From: a virus | Length of the DNA: 20,258 nucleotides | Strand: one strand, 5' to 3' | Virus record (IMG/VR): IMGVR_UViG_3300028571_000159 | Coordinates: 1 to 20,258 of that record | Part shown: positions 1,827 through 19,970 of the stretch, piece after piece | Position numbering within the stretch: position 1 is the stretch's first letter | How the letters are laid out: every line of letters starts with the position of its first letter | The notes under the pieces: model-generated | Seen by the model: only the letters and a program-made list of their open reading frames with translations | Told to the model about the DNA's origin: nothing | Database searches by the model: none | Program-made: the position numbers and the translations under genes

Positions 1827-2459
1827 ATGCCATATAGCCGTGGTTCGTCAAATAACATTATCGTTGGCGCAGCAGCACTTTTTGTTGCAGACACAACTTT
1901 AACTCCAGCAACTCTGGAGGCATTTGATGCAAGCGAGTCTTTTAAAGACACACTTACAGACAATGCAGATTACACTAACGTAGGTTATACAATGAACGGT
2001 CTTGAACTACAGTTCCAACCAGACTTCGGTGAAGTCCAGGTAGATCAGGTTCTTGACGTTGCTAGACTTTTCAAGCAAGGCATGCAGGTAAATCTTGCAA
2101 CAGCATTTGCTGAAGCAACATTAGAAAACTTGCTTCTTGCTCTAGCGTATTCTGATTCAAAGATTTCAGGAAACAAGAATGCATCTACAGGAAGAATTCT
2201 AGATGTTTCTGCAGGCGACATTGGAGAAGTTCCATTGGAGCGAGGACTTGTTGCCGTTGGCCCAGGAACTGGAAACCCAGCAACTGCAGCCGATGTTGAA
2301 AGAGTTTACTCAGCATACCGTGCTTTGTCAATCGAAAACGTTACAGTTTCAGCAAAGCGTGATGAGGCTTCAATGTTTGAAGTATCATTCCGTCTATTAC
2401 CAGAAGATACATCAGGATCTTACGGTAAGATCGTAGATCGTACATACGGTCAATCATAA
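1827..2459 (+). CDS. Major tail (tube) protein
   Basis: A 210-residue protein, probably the repeating subunit of the tail tube. The ATG at 1827 follows AAAGAGGTG (1811-1819) at good spacing. The sequence looks like a single-domain tube subunit: an N-terminal strand block with NIIVGAAALFVAD, a central GYTMNGLELQFQPDFGEV beta hairpin, then LDVARLFKQGMQVNLATAFAEATLENLLLALA, where a strand leads into the long helix typical of tube proteins, and a C-terminal strand (MFEVSFRLLPED). Codons look somewhat richer in G and C than in neighbouring genes, consistent with high expression. It lies between a possible promoter and a strong terminator, and before the tail chaperones and tape measure, the normal place for the tube gene in long-tailed phages. 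Confidence 0.75.
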   Translation: MPYSRGSSNNIIVGAAALFVADTTLTPATLEAFDASESFKDTLTDNADYTNVGYTMNGLELQFQPDFGEVQVDQVLDVARLFKQGMQVNLATAFAEATLENLLLALAYSDSKISGNKNASTGRILDVSAGDIGEVPLERGLVAVGPGTGNPATAADVERVYSAYRALSIENVTVSAKRDEASMFEVSFRLLPEDTSGSYGKIVDRTYGQS

Positions 2460-2474: not shown

Positions 2475-2480
2475 ACAAAG

Positions 2481-2507
2481 ACCCACTTCTTCGGAGGTGG
2501 GTTTTTT
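2481..2507 (+). terminator. Intrinsic terminator with a cUUCGg tetraloop
   Basis: A 9-base-pair stem (2481-2489 pairing with 2494-2502, one T-G wobble) closes a TTCG loop flanked by C and G, the extra-stable cUUCGg tetraloop, and runs into six T residues at 2502-2507. This is a textbook rho-independent terminator. It sits 21 bases after the major tail protein stop, so it would end or attenuate transcripts carrying that gene and lower expression of the chaperones and tape measure downstream. The T-tract overlaps the -35 element of the next promoter. Confidence 0.92.
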
Positions 2508-2534
2508 GTATGAATAGCCGTTTTATGGTAAAAT
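2506..2534 (+). promoter_or_regulatory. Extended -10 promoter for the long tail chaperone
   Basis: TTGTAT (2506-2511), a 17-base spacer, then TAAAAT (2529-2534) with TG at 2526-2527 in the extended -10 position. The -35 box starts inside the terminator T-tract, so termination and re-initiation are packed into about 50 bases. Transcription would start around 2541-2543, at or just before the ATG at 2543, giving an almost leaderless mRNA. That agrees with the lack of a Shine-Dalgarno sequence before this ATG. Confidence 0.55.
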
Positions 2535-2542
2535 GGAATTCT

Positions 2543-3238
2543 ATGGCAACCACAATATATAATAGTCAAATTATACATTTATTTGACGGTACTGAACTAG
2601 AAATAGTTCCATTAAAAATTAAGTATTTGCGTGAGTTTATGAATTCTTTTGAGGATATTAAAAATACAAAAAACGACGATGAGTCTATAGCCACTCTTGT
2701 TGAATGTGTTAGAATATGCATGAAACAATACCATCCAGCAATATCTGAAACAACCAGCCAAATTGAAGATTCTATAGATATGCCAACTATATATAAGGTA
2801 TTAGACACTGCTGCGGGTATTCGTATTAATAAAAAATCATCAGAGCCAGTAAAGGATCAAGCCCTTGACAGTGGCCAAACTTGGGAAACCCTAGACCTTG
2901 CAAAGTTAGAGTCAGAGGTATTTTTGCTAGGTATATGGAAAGATTATCAAGAACTAGAAAAGTCTCTATCAATGCCAGAACTTATAGCAACTCTTGAAGT
3001 AAGCAGAGAGTTAGACTACACAGAAAAAAAATTCTTAGCAGCAATTCAAGGTGTAGATTTAGACGGTCAAACAGATTCAAACAAAGGTCAAAAAGAATGG
3101 GAAGATATGAAAGCAAGAGTTTTTAGTGGTGGAAAAACAGGTGACTCAAATGATATTTTATCTTTACAAGGACCAAATGCAGCCAAAGCAGGGTTTGGTA
3201 TAAACGAGGGTATAGAGTACGAAGACCTAAGAAAATAG
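2543..3238 (+). CDS. Long tail assembly chaperone (GT-like form, no frameshift)
   Basis: A 231-residue protein, probably a chaperone that binds the tape measure protein and recruits tube subunits during tail assembly. Residues 1-96 are homologous to the whole separate downstream gene (about 41 identities in 97 aligned positions counted by eye; shared MATT start, DGT, PLKI, LVECV, QY, PT-x-YK and GI). Residues from about 105 on form an extra domain with ELEKSLSMPELIATLE and DYTEKKFLAAIQGVDLD, resembling the T part of fused GT chaperones. The frame can be opened upstream to an ATG at 2510, but 2543 is preferred: the paralogue begins MATT at the same point, and the promoter places the transcript start there. 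An A6 run (2831-2836, codons 97-98) marks the domain junction, with the reading frame continuous across it. The chaperone role is inferred from position, paralogy and the T-like domain. Confidence 0.7.
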   Translation: MATTIYNSQIIHLFDGTELEIVPLKIKYLREFMNSFEDIKNTKNDDESIATLVECVRICMKQYHPAISETTSQIEDSIDMPTIYKVLDTAAGIRINKKSSEPVKDQALDSGQTWETLDLAKLESEVFLLGIWKDYQELEKSLSMPELIATLEVSRELDYTEKKFLAAIQGVDLDGQTDSNKGQKEWEDMKARVFSGGKTGDSNDILSLQGPNAAKAGFGINEGIEYEDLRK

Positions 3239-3246
3239 CCTTCCTA

Positions 3247-3255
3247 TGCTATAAT
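3247..3255 (+). promoter_or_regulatory. Extended -10 promoter for the short tail chaperone
   Basis: TGCTATAAT at 3247-3255 is a perfect extended -10 element in the 40-base gap between the two chaperone genes. No good -35 box is seen, which extended -10 promoters tolerate. The start would be near 3262, leaving a leader of about 17 bases that contains AGGAGG (3269-3274) before the ATG at 3279. Confidence 0.55.
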
Positions 3256-3278
3256 TGACATAACCTATAGGAGGAAAT

Positions 3279-3602
3279 ATGGCGACAACCGTGCATGAGG
3301 CTGACCAAGTCACCCTTATCGATGGAACAAAAATAACAGTTCGCCCGTTAAAAATCTCTCTTCTTCGTCCGTTTATGAAGAAGTTTGAAGGGGTGGCTAA
3401 GGTTGCAGAGGACAATGAAAAATCAATGACTCTGCTTGTTGAATGTGTACAAATTGCTATGGAGCAGTACAAGCCAGAATTGGCTGGGGACATTCAAAAA
3501 CTAGAAGATCTTCTTGATCTTCCAACTGTGTATAAAATTGTTGAAGCAGCATCTGGCATTAATTTGTCATCTGTTACAGACATTCTTAACACACAGGAAT
3601 AA
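3279..3602 (+). CDS. Short tail assembly chaperone (G-like form, separate paralogous gene)
   Basis: A 107-residue protein matching the N-terminal domain of the preceding chaperone along its full length (about 42 percent identity by eye, one single-residue gap) and lacking the C-terminal extension. It corresponds to the G form that long-tailed phages usually make by reading a G-T locus without frameshifting. Here it is an independent gene with a perfect AGGAGG Shine-Dalgarno sequence (3269-3274) 4 bases before the ATG and its own extended -10 box. Only 25 bases separate its stop from the tape measure gene, leaving no room for a downstream T frame. It probably coats the tape measure protein as the more abundant chaperone. 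The role is inferred from paralogy and position. Confidence 0.7.
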   Translation: MATTVHEADQVTLIDGTKITVRPLKISLLRPFMKKFEGVAKVAEDNEKSMTLLVECVQIAMEQYKPELAGDIQKLEDLLDLPTVYKIVEAASGINLSSVTDILNTQE

Positions 3603-3627: not shown

Positions 3628-6600
3628 ATGGCTGATGTTAATGCTAATATTGGCGTAAGTATAGATACGTCTGAAGCATTAGCACAGTTAAAGGCTTTAC
3701 AAAGACAAATATCTCAGTTTCACTCTTCTATCGCTAGGTCTAGCGAATCAGCAGCACTTGCTCAAAAGTCTCTGCAGAAAAACTTAATTGGTAGTATTAA
3801 TTCCATTGGTGCTTTTTCTGCAGAACTTAGAACTGTTAGAACAAGTGCGGAAACATTTACCAACTCTTTAGAAAAAAACAAGTTTGGAATGCGGGAGTAT
3901 TTCCGCTATGCTGGTGCATCTACAAAAACTTTTGGAAGACTGTTTAAATCAGAATTTGACACAATTGGCAAAGTAGCAGAAGAACGTGTAAAAACACTAC
4001 AAACCCAATACATTAAAATGGGTCGTAATGCTAGTGGAGCAATGGAATCAATTGCTATCAGGCCTACTTCTCTTAACATGCAAGATTATGGTACAAGAAC
4101 AGCCATAGCAGCACAAAAACAAGCATTATTTAATCAGTTAATGAAGCAAGGAACTACCAACCTTTTAAACTTTGGTAAAAATACACAATGGGCTGGACGC
4201 CAACTTATGGTTGGTTTTACAATACCATTGGCTGTTGTTGGGTCAACTGCTACAAAAACATTTATGGACATGGAAGCCCAAGCCCTTAAGTTTAGAAAAG
4301 TTTACGGAGATCTATTTACTCCAAAGGCTGAGACTCAAGAAGCGTTAGACAATATTACAGAACTAGGCAGACAGTTTACAAAATATGGAATTGCAGTTTC
4401 CACCACTGTTGGTTTAGCAGCAGAGGCTGCAGCAGCAGGTTTTCAAGGTTTAGACTTACAACGTCAAACAACAGAAGCAACTCGCCTTTCTATTCTTGGT
4501 CAAATAGATACACAAAAGGCCCTTGAAACAACGATTTCATTACAAAACGCATTTGGTATGTCTTCTGACAAACTTGCAGATTCAATTAACTTTTTAAACG
4601 CAGTAGAAAACCAAACCGTTGTATCTCTTGACGATATTACTACCGCTATTCCAAAGGTAGCACCAGTTATTCAACAGTTAGGCGGAGATGTAAAAGATTT
4701 AACATTCTTTATTGCAGCAATGAAAGAAGGCGGTATTAATGCATCAGAAGGTGCTAACGCACTTAAATCTGGTCTTGCAGCATTAATTAATCCTACTGGT
4801 AAAGCATCTGAAATGCTTGCTCAATTTGGAATAAATGCAAGAGAGATTGTTGTAAAAAATAAAGGTGATTTAAAGGCAACAGTTATTGAATTTGCAGAAG
4901 CCCTAAACCAACTAGATCCATTAAATAGAGCACAAGCAATTGAACAAATGTTTGGAAAATTTCAATTTGCTCGTTTGTCAGCATTGTTTGCTAACGTAAC
5001 TAAAGAAGGAAATCAGGCTTCTCGTGTTCTTGACTTAGCAAATTCATCAGTACAAGAACTTTCTGATTTGTCTGAACAAGAATTAGGAATGACTGCAGAT
5101 TCTGCAATGAATAAATTTAAAAAGAGTGTTGAAGATCTTAAGTTTGCACTCATACCAGTTGGTCAAGCATTTTTAGAAGCAGCAACCCCAATTATTGAAT
5201 TTGTTGGCGGAGTATTAGAAAAATTTGGAAATCTTTCAGACGGAACTAAAAGACTTATAACATTTTTAACTGTAGGAATAGGTGCAATTGGACCAATCTT
5301 TTTAATGACATTTGGTTTAATTGCTAACGCAATTGCAAACGGACTTAAGGGTGTAATGCTTTTACGCCAAGGATATCTAAGATTAACAGGTCAATCACAA
5401 ATTCTTGGAGAACAAACACAATACTTAAACACAGAACAACTTGAGGCTGCTGCTGCAGCACACTCATTGGATCAATCACATGCAAGACTAACGCAACGGT
5501 TTACTGCTGAAACAGCAGCACTAAATGCTTTAATTGCTGCATATCAAAGTGCTACTAGAGCAGGTCAATCATTTATGTTTAATAATCCTGGAATGATGAT
5601 GCCAACAAGAGGACCTGTTAGAAAACTAGCCAGTGGTATTGTTTCAGTACCAGGACCAAAGGGTGCAGGCGATATAGTTCCAGCAATGCTATCTCCAGGA
5701 GAAGCGGTTATTCCAGCAGAATTTGCAAAAAAATATGCACCATTAATTCAAGGAATGGTTGCTGGAAATATTCCTGGATACATGGCTGGAAAAGATGTAG
5801 CATTTGCTCATGCAGCAATGCCTTTTTCTCCAGGGTCTTCACAATTTCAACAAGGAATAAAGATTGCTGGCTTAGAAAAATTGGCACAAGAATTTCCACA
5901 ATTTATTAAAGTTGTTTCAAACCTAGTATCAGAACTTCCACAATCTTTAAACGTAGCAATGAAAAAAGGCGCAGGCGCTGGAGAATTTTCTAGAGAATAT
6001 GGAGCAAGAACTGGAAAATTTGCAACTGCTGCTAAGTTAGGTGGCTTAGACATTGCTAATCCAGAATCCGCAATAGCATTACAAAAATTAGAAAATGAAA
6101 TTGGTGAAACAACTATATCTCTTGCAAAACAACAGGCTGCTGGAGGAAAAGTAGTAGTTTCAGATGAAATGTTTGCTAAAGCAACTAGATCTGTTATTGA
6201 TAAATATAAACTTGTTGAAGGAGCAGCAGGAAAAGCAGCAAAAGCATTAGATGCTTCATCACAACAAATTGGTCAAGTAAGAGTAAGCGCTAAAAAAGAA
6301 GACATAGTTGCTGGACTAGAAAGTGGAAGATTTAGAAGAACTAGAACTGCAAATCAAACTCAAAATCAAATAATGTTTGATGATATTAACGTTGGAAGAG
6401 AAAGCGTTTCTAGTCCAGGACAGTTTCAGTCTGGAAACCCTAAGAGTCCAAGAGGAACATATAGAGGAAAACAAAAAAGATCAATATTGGTTAGTCAAGC
6501 AACAAGCCCTAGTGCAAATAGGTTAGACCCAAGAGTAGCAAGTGCTGGCGGAGGCGCAGCCTTAGTTGCTGGATTAAGATCAGCACAACAAGCAAGGTAT

Positions 6601-9600
6601 AACAGAGAAGATGCCTCTATATTAGAAGCAATGGGGGCACAAAATGCAAGATCTGCAATTAGTGCTACAGAAAAAGAAGCACAAACCGCATCTCCATCTA
6701 GAAAAACAATAAAAATTGGTCAAGATATTGCCCGTGGTCTTGAAGTTGGAATGCAAAATAGACAAAAGGCTGTCGCTGCCGCTGGAACAAAATTAGCAAA
6801 TTCTGCAGTTGATGCAACAAGATCTGCAAAAGCAACACAGTCATATGAAAGACTTTATGGCGCAGGAAACCCAATTGATGCTACAGACAAATCAATTAGA
6901 AGAAATTTACAAAAACAATTACCACTTTCTCAAATTGGGCCTAATATAGCAATGAGTCCACAAATTTCTCAAGGTGTAAAAGATCAAGCAAAAAACCTAC
7001 AAGCATCAAATGAAAAATTTGCTGGTTTTAATAGCAAAATCATGGGTGGAACATTTGCCCTTACATCACTTGCTGGAGTTGCCTCTATGGCAGGTGGCAA
7101 TTTAGGAAAACTTTCTGGAATTGTATTTCAACTTAGTGGAGTAATGTTTGCTTTGTCAACTGTATTACAAATATTGCCTAAAAAACTTTTAGCATCTTCT
7201 GCTGCAAAAGCATTTTTAAAACCAGGACCACTGTTATTATTTACTGCCGCACTTTTGGCAGGGGCTGGAATAATTAAATTAATTAATAATGCTAGAGAAA
7301 AAGAAAGAATGGCTATTGAAGGTGTTGGTAAGGCTGCTAACTTAACTTCAAGTCAAATAGAAAAACTTGGTAAGGTTCTTGGTTTTACTCCAGTAAAAAG
7401 TAATTTAGAATTATCAAAACCAGCAGTTTCTGGTCTAACAGTAGAAAAAAGTCAACAAGTAGAAGAAACAAGAAAATTATTAGCAGAAGACAAAGATTTT
7501 AAAAATCAAATTGCTGCATTAAAAAATACAACAAATGAACAAGCAGATATAATATTTAAATCTTTGGCATTAAGGCTTACTGGCCAAGGAGCGACAAAAG
7601 AACAAATTACCAACTACATTTATGCTCTTCAGCAAGAAGCAGGTAAAACAGATGTAAAATTTGATTTAAAATCAATTGATCTTTCTACAAAAGAAGGACA
7701 GGCTGGTTTGCAAAATTCTGTTAATACATTACTTAAGGATTATAAGACTGCATTTGATAAAGGATACAAAACCACAAAGGTTCAATCAAGAACCACTGGA
7801 GACATTATTGAAATTGGAATTGCATCTGATGAATTAAAAACAAAATTATCAACAACTGCAAACGTTATTTCAAACACTTTTATGTCATTAGACACTCAGT
7901 TGCGTAGTGGAAAAATTAGTGCTGATCAATTTAATCAATCTTTTGATAATATTTCTACCAGCATTAATGAAATGCCAAAAGCAGAAGGACTGTTTTTAAT
8001 GGGAGAATTATTAAAAACCTTACCTTCAGAACTTGTTAAATCAGCAAGTGGTTTAAAAGAAACTGCTAATCAACTTTTAATTATAAAGGCAGCCGCACTG
8101 GGCGTTGCAGTTTCTACAGAAATGATTCAAGCATTACTTATAGCAGAAACTGATAAAAGTGCAGATTCTCAAATTAGAGCATCAACAATTAAAGCAGAGT
8201 TAGAAAGAAAAATGAAGGTTGCTCAACAAGTTATATCAAGTTTAGTTACAAAAGACTATGTAGACGTCGGAGAAAAAAGTAAAAGTGCAAAAGAATTAGC
8301 AGAAAAAAGATTTTCAATTATTCAAAATTATTTTAGTGCAAAAGAGGCTCTAATTAGACAAGATAGACAATTAGAAGAAGACGCACTACAAGCATCAATA
8401 GACGGAACACAAAAAAGAATTGATGATGAGCAAAAATTAATTGACATAAATGAGCGCCAAATTGATTTATTGAACCGTAGAATTGATCTTGAATATGACA
8501 GACCAATTCAAAAATTACAAGATGAATCAACAATATTAGGAAACAATCTTGATATTATTCGTAAACAAGAAGATGCTATTAATAGTCAATATGATAAACA
8601 AATTCAATCGCTTGAAAAAATATCATCTATTAATCAAGAGATTGCAGGTCAAGAAAAATCAAGACTAACTATTGCTGATGCTTTAACATCTGGAGATATA
8701 GCCGCCGCCGCAGCGGCCGTTCAAGATGCTAGATCACAGGCTGCAGCATCTAGAATAGATCAACAAACAAAAGCACTTGAAGTGTCTCGTCAACAAGCAC
8801 TTACTGGAATTACCGCTGGGGGAATGACAAAAGATCAAATTGAAGCCCGTACATATGCAATTGGTCAACAAGTTTTTTCACTTGAACAACAAAGAAAAAC
8901 CTTACAGGATCAAGTAGTTGTTCTTCAGGATAAAAACTATGCGACTGAGCAAAACATTTATAAAATTAAAGAAGATTCACTAATACCACAACAAAAAGCC
9001 CTTGAGACATATCAAAAATTAACAACATCACTGATTGAAGGCCAACTAGTTCTTGGAAAAACTCAAAAAGAGTGGGTAACTGCTGAAGGAAAGGTAAATC
9101 TTTATAATGCCGCACTTGATTTGTCAAACGAAAAATTAAGTGGCATGGATAAACTTTTAACAAGTATTGCAAAAAAATCTTCTAGTCTTCAGACTAACTT
9201 AGAAAATAAAGGAACAATAGGTGCGTTATCTGTAACACCAAAAACATTTACAACTGGCACTGGTCAAACTAAAATAACAACACCGTTTGACACAGGATCT
9301 GCAATTAAAAAAAGCCTAGGGGGCATGGTTCCTAAATATATGGCTCGTGGTGGAAAGATTGGTTCTGATACCGTGCCAGCAATGCTAACTCCTGGAGAGT
9401 TTGTAATGAATAAACAAGCAACAAAATCTTTTGGCCCACTACTTTCAATGTTAAATGAATCAAAATATCCATCAATGATAGGATCATCATATGCTGGACA
9501 GGGTGGATCTGGATCAAACATAACATCTGTTAGTGACAACTCCAGTAGCGTGTATAATTATAATGTTGGAATTACCGTTCCACAATCAAGTGCTAATCCA

Positions 9601-9672
9601 AATGATATTGCCAGAGCAGTAATTGGACAGATTAAGTATATTGATAATCAAAGAATTAGGGGACAAAGATAA
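3628..9672 (+). CDS. Tail tape measure protein
   Basis: A 2014-residue protein, the longest in the window, that sets tail length and probably helps DNA cross the host envelope. The start ATG follows AGAGAAGGTG. Visible order: a helical N-terminus; a TP901-like tape measure core at about residues 213-450 (TTVGLAAEAAAAGFQG, then EGGINASEGANALKSGLAAL); a strongly hydrophobic stretch at about 542-572; DIVPAMLSPGEAVIP at about 682-696; further hydrophobic stretches at about 1142-1219; long coiled coils at about 1565-1810 with an alanine-rich SGDIAAAAAAVQDARS segment near 1690; and a second copy of the motif, DTVPAMLTPGEFVMN, at about 1914-1928. At the usual rule of about 0.15 nm per residue the tail would be near 300 nm, if the protein is not processed. 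No lysozyme or peptidase domain was recognised. It ends in a TAATG overlap with the next gene. Confidence 0.92.
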   Translation: MADVNANIGVSIDTSEALAQLKALQRQISQFHSSIARSSESAALAQKSLQKNLIGSINSIGAFSAELRTVRTSAETFTNSLEKNKFGMREYFRYAGASTKTFGRLFKSEFDTIGKVAEERVKTLQTQYIKMGRNASGAMESIAIRPTSLNMQDYGTRTAIAAQKQALFNQLMKQGTTNLLNFGKNTQWAGRQLMVGFTIPLAVVGSTATKTFMDMEAQALKFRKVYGDLFTPKAETQEALDNITELGRQFTKYGIAVSTTVGLAAEAAAAGFQGLDLQRQTTEATRLSILGQIDTQKALETTISLQNAFGMSSDKLADSINFLNAVENQTVVSLDDITTAIPKVAPVIQQLGGDVKDLTFFIAAMKEGGINASEGANALKSGLAALINPTGKASEMLAQFGINAREIVVKNKGDLKATVIEFAEALNQLDPLNRAQAIEQMFGKFQFARLSALFANVTKEGNQASRVLDLANSSVQELSDLSEQELGMTADSAMNKFKKSVEDLKFALIPVGQAFLEAATPIIEFVGGVLEKFGNLSDGTKRLITFLTVGIGAIGPIFLMTFGLIANAIANGLKGVMLLRQGYLRLTGQSQILGEQTQYLNTEQLEAAAAAHSLDQSHARLTQRFTAETAALNALIAAYQSATRAGQSFMFNNPGMMMPTRGPVRKLASGIVSVPGPKGAGDIVPAMLSPGEAVIPAEFAKKYAPLIQGMVAGNIPGYMAGKDVAFAHAAMPFSPGSSQFQQGIKIAGLEKLAQEFPQFIKVVSNLVSELPQSLNVAMKKGAGAGEFSREYGARTGKFATAAKLGGLDIANPESAIALQKLENEIGETTISLAKQQAAGGKVVVSDEMFAKATRSVIDKYKLVEGAAGKAAKALDASSQQIGQVRVSAKKEDIVAGLESGRFRRTRTANQTQNQIMFDDINVGRESVSSPGQFQSGNPKSPRGTYRGKQKRSILVSQATSPSANRLDPRVASAGGGAALVAGLRSAQQARYNREDASILEAMGAQNARSAISATEKEAQTASPSRKTIKIGQDIARGLEVGMQNRQKAVAAAGTKLANSAVDATRSAKATQSYERLYGAGNPIDATDKSIRRNLQKQLPLSQIGPNIAMSPQISQGVKDQAKNLQASNEKFAGFNSKIMGGTFALTSLAGVASMAGGNLGKLSGIVFQLSGVMFALSTVLQILPKKLLASSAAKAFLKPGPLLLFTAALLAGAGIIKLINNAREKERMAIEGVGKAANLTSSQIEKLGKVLGFTPVKSNLELSKPAVSGLTVEKSQQVEETRKLLAEDKDFKNQIAALKNTTNEQADIIFKSLALRLTGQGATKEQITNYIYALQQEAGKTDVKFDLKSIDLSTKEGQAGLQNSVNTLLKDYKTAFDKGYKTTKVQSRTTGDIIEIGIASDELKTKLSTTANVISNTFMSLDTQLRSGKISADQFNQSFDNISTSINEMPKAEGLFLMGELLKTLPSELVKSASGLKETANQLLIIKAAALGVAVSTEMIQALLIAETDKSADSQIRASTIKAELERKMKVAQQVISSLVTKDYVDVGEKSKSAKELAEKRFSIIQNYFSAKEALIRQDRQLEEDALQASIDGTQKRIDDEQKLIDINERQIDLLNRRIDLEYDRPIQKLQDESTILGNNLDIIRKQEDAINSQYDKQIQSLEKISSINQEIAGQEKSRLTIADALTSGDIAAAAAAVQDARSQAAASRIDQQTKALEVSRQQALTGITAGGMTKDQIEARTYAIGQQVFSLEQQRKTLQDQVVVLQDKNYATEQNIYKIKEDSLIPQQKALETYQKLTTSLIEGQLVLGKTQKEWVTAEGKVNLYNAALDLSNEKLSGMDKLLTSIAKKSSSLQTNLENKGTIGALSVTPKTFTTGTGQTKITTPFDTGSAIKKSLGGMVPKYMARGGKIGSDTVPAMLTPGEFVMNKQATKSFGPLLSMLNESKYPSMIGSSYAGQGGSGSNITSVSDNSSSVYNYNVGITVPQSSANPNDIARAVIGQIKYIDNQRIRGQR

Positions 9673-16620: not shown

Positions 16621-17036
16621 TGGCTGTAAAAAAAGCAATTATTCAAAAAGAATCTTTGCCACCAGTTGATTCAGAAAGTGCTGGATATGTAGTAAGATAT
16701 AGAATTATATCTGAAGATAAAAACAGAACATCTCACTGGTCTCCAACCTTTGTTACAAATGCTGTTCCAGTTGCATCAGTTAATGGTGCGTTATCTGTTA
16801 CAGCATCTATTATTACAGCAGTATGGGGTGACGAGTTAAACAGACCAGCATACGATGTGTTTGTAAAGTTTGATTCTGGATCATTTTTTTACCACGGAAC
16901 AACTCCAATACATACGTATCAATTTTTAAATACTGGAACAACATCTGTTCATGTTAAGGTGCAAATAGCATCTTCAATAAAAGAAATAAAAGCAGGGCTA
17001 GTTATCTTTGACTCAGGCTTAGAGTCTTTGGTATAA
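16620..17036 (+). CDS. Small tail protein with a fibronectin-III-like fold
   Basis: A 138-residue protein joined to the previous gene by a TAATG overlap. The sequence looks like one immunoglobulin or fibronectin type III-like beta sandwich: YVVRYRIISEDKNRTSHWSP resembles the B-C strands of an FN3 domain, followed by AYDVFVKFDSGSFFYHGTT and VHVKVQIAS strands. Such domains are common decorations of tail tips and fibres and often aid weak cell-surface binding. Its stop codon (17034-17036) lies inside the -10 box of the next promoter. I do not recognise a specific family, and the structural role comes from context. Confidence 0.5.
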   Translation: MAVKKAIIQKESLPPVDSESAGYVVRYRIISEDKNRTSHWSPTFVTNAVPVASVNGALSVTASIITAVWGDELNRPAYDVFVKFDSGSFFYHGTTPIHTYQFLNTGTTSVHVKVQIASSIKEIKAGLVIFDSGLESLV

Positions 17037-17037
17037 T
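17008..17037 (+). promoter_or_regulatory. Strong sigma-70-type promoter with extended -10
   Basis: TTGACT (17008-17013), an 18-base spacer, then TATAAT (17032-17037) with TG at 17029-17030 in the extended -10 position. This is the best all-round promoter match in the window. It overlaps the last codons of the FN3-like gene and would start near 17044, leaving a very short leader before the ATG at 17054. AGGAGG (17043-17048) lies at the predicted transcript start, so the exact start decides how much of it is transcribed. Confidence 0.6.
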
Positions 17038-17053
17038 TAAATAGGAGGAATAC

Positions 17054-17497
17054 ATGGCAAAAGTACCGCTACCAGAACGAGGTCAACCATTAGATGTACC
17101 ATACATTTATAGATTAGTTGATACAGTAAATCAGTTATCTACTGAGGTTTCTTCGGCGACCTATAATTATACGACAGTGGACACAATTAGCGCTGGCAAG
17201 CAAAGTGTTAAAACATCTGAAGTTCGTATGATTGGTGGATATGTAGAAGTAGCAAACAACTCTACCGTAACTGCAGCCTCTGAAAAATCTTTTGCTTATG
17301 ACTTTCCTACTGATTTTAAATATCAGCCAATTGCAACAGCAACTCCAGTAAACATAGGAAATACTCCAGCAGGACAAAACGTAAACGTTATTTTAAAAAC
17401 AGTAACAACTTCAAGGGTAGAAGGAATTGTTAGATTTGGTGCTTCTGGAGATTTATCTTTAGCAGTTAATTTAATAATTATTGGTATTCCTAACTAA
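17054..17497 (+). CDS. Small tail-fibre-tip-like structural protein
   Basis: A 147-residue protein with AGGAGG 5 bases before the ATG. An N-terminal polar helix (PYIYRLVDTVNQLSTEVSSAT, residues about 15-36) is followed by a beta-rich domain with evenly spaced strands (VRMIGGYVEVANNS, NVNVILKTVTTSRVEGIVRFG, LAVNLIIIGIPN). A short helix before a repetitive beta domain fits a trimeric fibre or spike tip, but trimerisation is inference. It is the last structural-looking gene before the regulatory and replication genes and has its own strong promoter, so it may be expressed at a level different from the upstream fibre genes. Confidence 0.5.
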   Translation: MAKVPLPERGQPLDVPYIYRLVDTVNQLSTEVSSATYNYTTVDTISAGKQSVKTSEVRMIGGYVEVANNSTVTAASEKSFAYDFPTDFKYQPIATATPVNIGNTPAGQNVNVILKTVTTSRVEGIVRFGASGDLSLAVNLIIIGIPN

Positions 17498-19961: not shown

Positions 19962-19970
19962 TGATATAAT
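19962..19970 (+). promoter_or_regulatory. Extended -10 promoter for the endonuclease VII-like gene
   Basis: TGATATAAT (19962-19970) is an extended -10 element 6 bases before the ATG at 19977. No convincing -35 box is seen. The expected start, about 7 bases after the -10 box, falls on the A of the ATG, so the mRNA would be leaderless. No Shine-Dalgarno sequence lies before the ATG, which agrees. Confidence 0.55.

Follow-up and report, generated by a model that had tools for sequence, protein, structure and literature searches.

Long and short tail assembly chaperones as two separate paralogous genes in a phage lineage related to frameshifting Stanwilliamsviridae

Few recoding events in tailed phages are as well conserved as the G/GT frameshift, and a locus that carries the long and the short tail assembly chaperone as separate genes raises the question of what has taken its place. 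Such a locus lies in the window analyzed here, the whole of a virus record of 20,258 bases, in which the tail module runs in the order probable major tail protein, long chaperone (GT), short chaperone (G) and tape measure protein (Table 1). An earlier note, made from the letters of the window only, had proposed that GT and G are separate, paralogous, in-frame genes, and both open reading frames are present as proposed. A mechanical list of open reading frames starts GT at the ATG at 2510. Because GT homologs begin at the MAT codon, and because 2510 falls between the terminator and the -10 element of the GT promoter, position 2543 is the likely start.

Table 1. Features of the tail chaperone locus, in positions of the window.
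Feature	Position	Strand	Remarks
Probable major tail protein gene	1827..2459	+	phrog_2175, 1.7e-31; syntenic Streptomyces phage family annotated major tail protein
Intrinsic terminator hairpin and T-run, between major tail protein gene and GT	2475..2509	+	dG -19.2 kcal/mol, z -4.9
Extended -10 of GT promoter, TGGTAAAAT	2526..2534	+	8 nt before ATG; probable leaderless start
GT, long tail assembly chaperone, in-frame fusion	2543..3238	+	231 aa
G-like N-terminal domain of GT, residues 1-98	2543..2836	+	phrog_10504 match over residues 1-100; tree
Variable linker of GT	2837..2872	+	site of slippery heptamer in frameshifting relatives; none conserved here
T-like C-terminal domain of GT, residues 111-231	2873..3235	+	phrog_10474; -1 frame in relatives
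Extended -10 of G promoter, TGCTATAAT	3247..3255	+	TGnTATAAT motif
Shine-Dalgarno AGGAGG of G	3269..3274	+	Shine-Dalgarno in 130/131 loci
G, short tail assembly chaperone	3279..3602	+	107 aa
Tape measure protein gene, expected chaperone partner	3628..9672	+	phrog_10030, E 7e-102

The relationship between the two proteins was evaluated by BLASTP, which aligned them with 41 of 97 positions identical, exactly the number previously counted by eye, and 66 of 97 positive (E=3e-29). Profile searches placed the N-terminal domain of GT and G in one family, phrog_10504 (2.7e-23 and 1.1e-20), and not in unrelated families, the outcome that the earlier note had named as contradicting paralogy; the second half of GT matched phrog_10474 (5e-14). 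Neither phrog has an assigned function. Using tblastn, both genes were linked to annotated Streptomyces phage chaperones, and the homologous genes of these phages, at about 35-44% identity, are mostly annotated as tail assembly chaperones and lie between the same neighbors. Members of the family also match phrog_1932, 344, 330 and 393, weakly. The predicted model of GT (pLDDT 77.7) comprises an N-terminal domain with a beta hairpin and helices, and a helical T domain. Searched against BFVD with Foldseek, this model matched a tail assembly chaperone from an uncultured phage (7e-5); weaker matches were to the Arthrobacter phage Kitkat chaperone (0.01) and the N15 GT protein (0.02). Nothing significant was obtained with Foldseek against the PDB, a search of solved structures by sequence gave no match, and a Pfam search gave nothing above its cut-off. 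The predicted model of G was poor (pLDDT 67.5) and was left out of the structural comparison.

The survey of related phages that had been suggested with the proposal was conducted on 345 loci, collected by scanning IMG/VR with GT, with G and with divergent members, together with four phage records. According to profile searches, 266 of the 345 loci carry an in-frame GT followed by G, as in the window, and 63 have a single G and a T in a different frame. The latter are Streptomyces phages of the Stanwilliamsviridae and related metagenomic contigs. The 16 remaining loci show incomplete patterns, and those whose length was checked stop at, or close to, the place of the missing part. In a phage collection of 50,697 records, 124 matched G, each in one place, and the duplicate arrangement was not found; a scan of bacterial genome contigs for relatives found none. 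The Streptomyces phages among the relatives hint at an actinobacterial host. One locus (L318) presents a GT-G spacer of 172 nt, against the usual length of about 45, apparently due to an insertion or an altered GT end upstream of a conserved G promoter.

The earlier note had also attributed to each gene its own promoter-like sequence and a different type of start, and both attributes are real and conserved. A generic sigma-70 and terminator scan missed the relevant sites, since it relies on a -35 box and since some of the T-run is taken up in the terminator stem; control elements were assessed by direct folding and by motif counts, with chance levels taken from dinucleotide shuffles and with the reservation that the loci counted are related and not independent. 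Ahead of GT, a strong hairpin before a T-run is present in 99% of loci versus 11% of shuffles. It is followed by an extended -10 element, TGnTAnnnT, ending 3-11 nt before the GT start in 117 of 132 loci (3.4 in shuffles) and 6-9 nt before it in 115. This element is mostly imperfect, with TAGAAT in 57, TAAAAT in 37, TATACT in 20 and TATAAT in 13 of the 132 loci, and none of them has a Shine-Dalgarno sequence ahead of GT. Leaderless genes are common in actinobacteria, and from the observed spacing the GT start is probably leaderless. In a minority of loci (14 of 132), 14-15 nt separate the -10 element from the start and a G-rich stretch is found instead; in the sub-group of L287, L206, L081, L071, L057 and L047, with about 14-15 nt and such a stretch, GT may have a short leader. 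In another locus (L034, about 3196-3270) the terminator hairpin ahead of GT seems to be missing, and the open reading frame taken as the major tail protein fails to align with the others, a possible insertion or rearrangement.

The control region of G is of a different kind. No terminator separates it from GT. The motif TGnTATAAT precedes G in 130 of 131 loci, in 128 of them at a distance of 20-32 nt (0.15 in shuffles), and a leader with an AGGAGG-like Shine-Dalgarno sequence (130 of 131) stands between promoter and start codon. The single G of the frameshifting relatives follows this same pattern, with TATAAT in 40 of 43, a Shine-Dalgarno sequence in 41 of 43 and a terminator upstream, which indicates that the standalone G keeps the older control region and that GT has a changed one. 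Two more TGnTATAAT sites are found in the window, at 17029-17037 and 19962-19970, the first of them 16 nt upstream of the start of an open reading frame at 17054, with AGGAGG in between; the phage thus seems to use this extended -10 as a general type of promoter.

In a maximum likelihood tree of 96 G domains, the N-terminal domains of GT all form one clade (99/99) and the standalone G proteins all form another (95/89). The copies therefore parted a single time, ahead of the diversification of this group, and have not exchanged sequence since. In a careful tree of the tape measure protein, phages with GT and G form one clade with moderate support (76/99); in quick trees of the tape measure protein, the tail protein and the T domain, a single origin was not resolved. 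The G-domain tree also bears on the route by which the second copy arose. The standalone G clade adjoins the G of frameshifting metagenomic relatives, and the GT N-domain clade has a long stem and branches outside the other relatives, not beside G, as might be anticipated if GT had been gained by recombination from another phage beside an existing G, instead of by tandem duplication. A topology with both copies together, however, is not rejected (p-AU 0.41), a long stem is also expected after duplication with faster change, and a donor phage was not found, so that we regard acquisition as unlikely, although it is the alternative to which we give the most weight, and infer tandem duplication as the route.

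The two copies within one genome share only 28-47% identity, and each has conserved residues of its own; K27/Y28 of GT, for example, correspond to S27/L28 of G. Such divergence would also fit genes that have become different proteins, with GT alone performing assembly and G serving a new role. All three domains are nevertheless under purifying selection (median dN/dS 0.12 for the GT N-domain, 0.08 for T and 0.13 for G), and the copies always lie side by side ahead of the tape measure gene, with G retaining the ancestral control region; a new role for G is therefore improbable. Of the two copies, G is the better conserved in 82% of genome pairs.

The slippery site was compared between GT and the frameshifting relatives. 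In the latter, T is in the -1 frame in 25 of 25 distinct junctions, and most G/T overlaps have, where the G domain ends, C_CCA_AAC, C_CCA_AAT or G_GGA_AAC, in many cases immediately preceded by a TGA in the -1 frame. One of CCCAAAC, CCCAAAT and GGGAAAC is present in 41 of 43 non-redundant relatives, where synonymous resampling gives 11.7 ± 2.8. Two Streptomyces phages of the Boydwoodruffvirinae, BoomerJR and Coruscant (L004 and L006), carry a non-canonical heptamer, CCCGGAA, at the presumed frameshift site where others have CCCAAAY. Across 133 GT junctions, canonical heptamers in the 0 frame occur in 9, versus 14.2 ± 2.9 expected from synonymous resampling. They are thus not above the synonymous expectation, and the conserved functional slippery site that had been named in advance as evidence against a two-gene arrangement is not seen in GT, the linker of which varies in length and sequence and has no A run conserved in position. 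Codon shuffles (9 observed versus 31) made GT appear to avoid slippery heptamers, but the deficit shrank to the difference given above under synonymous resampling, and no avoidance is claimed. That GT still yields the short form by dnaX-like frameshifting out of its own frame at AAT AAA AAA TCA (near 2828-2839), the second gene being a mere extra copy, is very hard to credit, for although the window does have an A6 run at the end of the G domain, where a -1 or +1 shift soon reaches a stop, it has no canonical heptamer there, the run is not conserved in relatives, and junction heptamers do not exceed expectation in GT yet are strongly selected in the frameshifting relatives.

The reading that we prefer, to which we assign a probability of roughly 0.8, is that the two genes derive from one duplicated frameshifting unit and that two promoters and two start types now set the ratio of their products. 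The ancestor would have had a single unit of promoter, G and T, with a minority of GT arising by -1 frameshifting at a C_CCA_AAY site that ended G. One duplication of this unit would have followed. In its upstream copy, the frames of G and T would have been fused with loss of the slippery site, and the leader and Shine-Dalgarno sequence would have been lost as well, leaving the start codon just past a weakened -10 element. The downstream copy would have lost T and kept the strong promoter, the leader and AGGAGG. Transcripts from the major tail protein gene would end at the terminator, and the weaker promoter would then produce a leaderless GT-G-tape-measure transcript, whereas the stronger promoter between GT and G would produce a G-tape-measure transcript with efficient initiation. 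G would be made from both transcripts, and would hence exceed GT. As judged from the paired control sequences, the G:GT ratio would thus be set by promoters and start types. By analogy with lambda, G would form a coat on the tape measure protein, and GT would connect that protein to the tail tube subunit. We lean, with less assurance than for the account as a whole, towards the broader view that this lineage swapped a conserved frameshift for a duplication, maintaining the ratio through a weak promoter with leaderless GT and a strong promoter with Shine-Dalgarno-initiated G, and leaving the two chaperones free to specialize.

Here phages that shift frame can be set directly beside relatives that do not, the slippery site being under selection in the former and lost from the latter, and the comparison opens to study the course and causes of frameshift loss and the means by which the product ratio is maintained. 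From the paired control regions follows a clear prediction on leaderless versus Shine-Dalgarno initiation. For annotators, an absent slippery site need not mean an absent long chaperone.

With respect to known systems, GT and G resemble lambda-type G/GT in their position between the major tail protein and the tape measure protein, ahead of the gene for the latter, in the N-terminal domain common to a short and a long form (266 loci), and in the T-like extension of the long form. In lambda, low-level -1 programmed frameshifting produces a 30:1 excess of G over GT (PMC5009743, review), whereas here the long form is an in-frame fusion without a conserved heptamer, and there are two genes with separate promoters and different start types. 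The Stanwilliamsviridae (BillNye, TunaTartare, BoomerJR, Coruscant) and IMG/VR contigs such as L264-L286 have homologs of both domains between the same neighbors, and differ in having one G only, from which T is reached in the -1 frame at CCCAAAY or a similar site. In some T4-like phages, a short gene and a longer fusion gene replace the frameshift, as described in the PRFect paper (PMC10274946), which cites Vladimirov, Gautam and Davidson 2022. By that second-hand description, GT and G are of the same kind, a separate short gene and a long fusion gene without frameshift; the T4-like phages belong to another phage group, and the likeness is one of arrangement, for which no common descent is claimed. 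Some Microbacterium cluster EA phages, which are phages of actinobacteria and also depart from frameshifting, have two separately expressed chaperone ORFs with no evident frameshift (PMC7302621), reported as two ORFs and not as paralogous short and fused long forms. Given the T4-like and Microbacterium EA reports, the principle of two-gene chaperones is already known, and GT and G are, as far as the second-hand account of the T4-like genes goes, an independent variant of it. What appears to be new is the occurrence of this arrangement in a large lineage that is related to the Stanwilliamsviridae and has frameshifting relatives in which the slippery site persists, together with the conserved architecture of two promoters and two start types.
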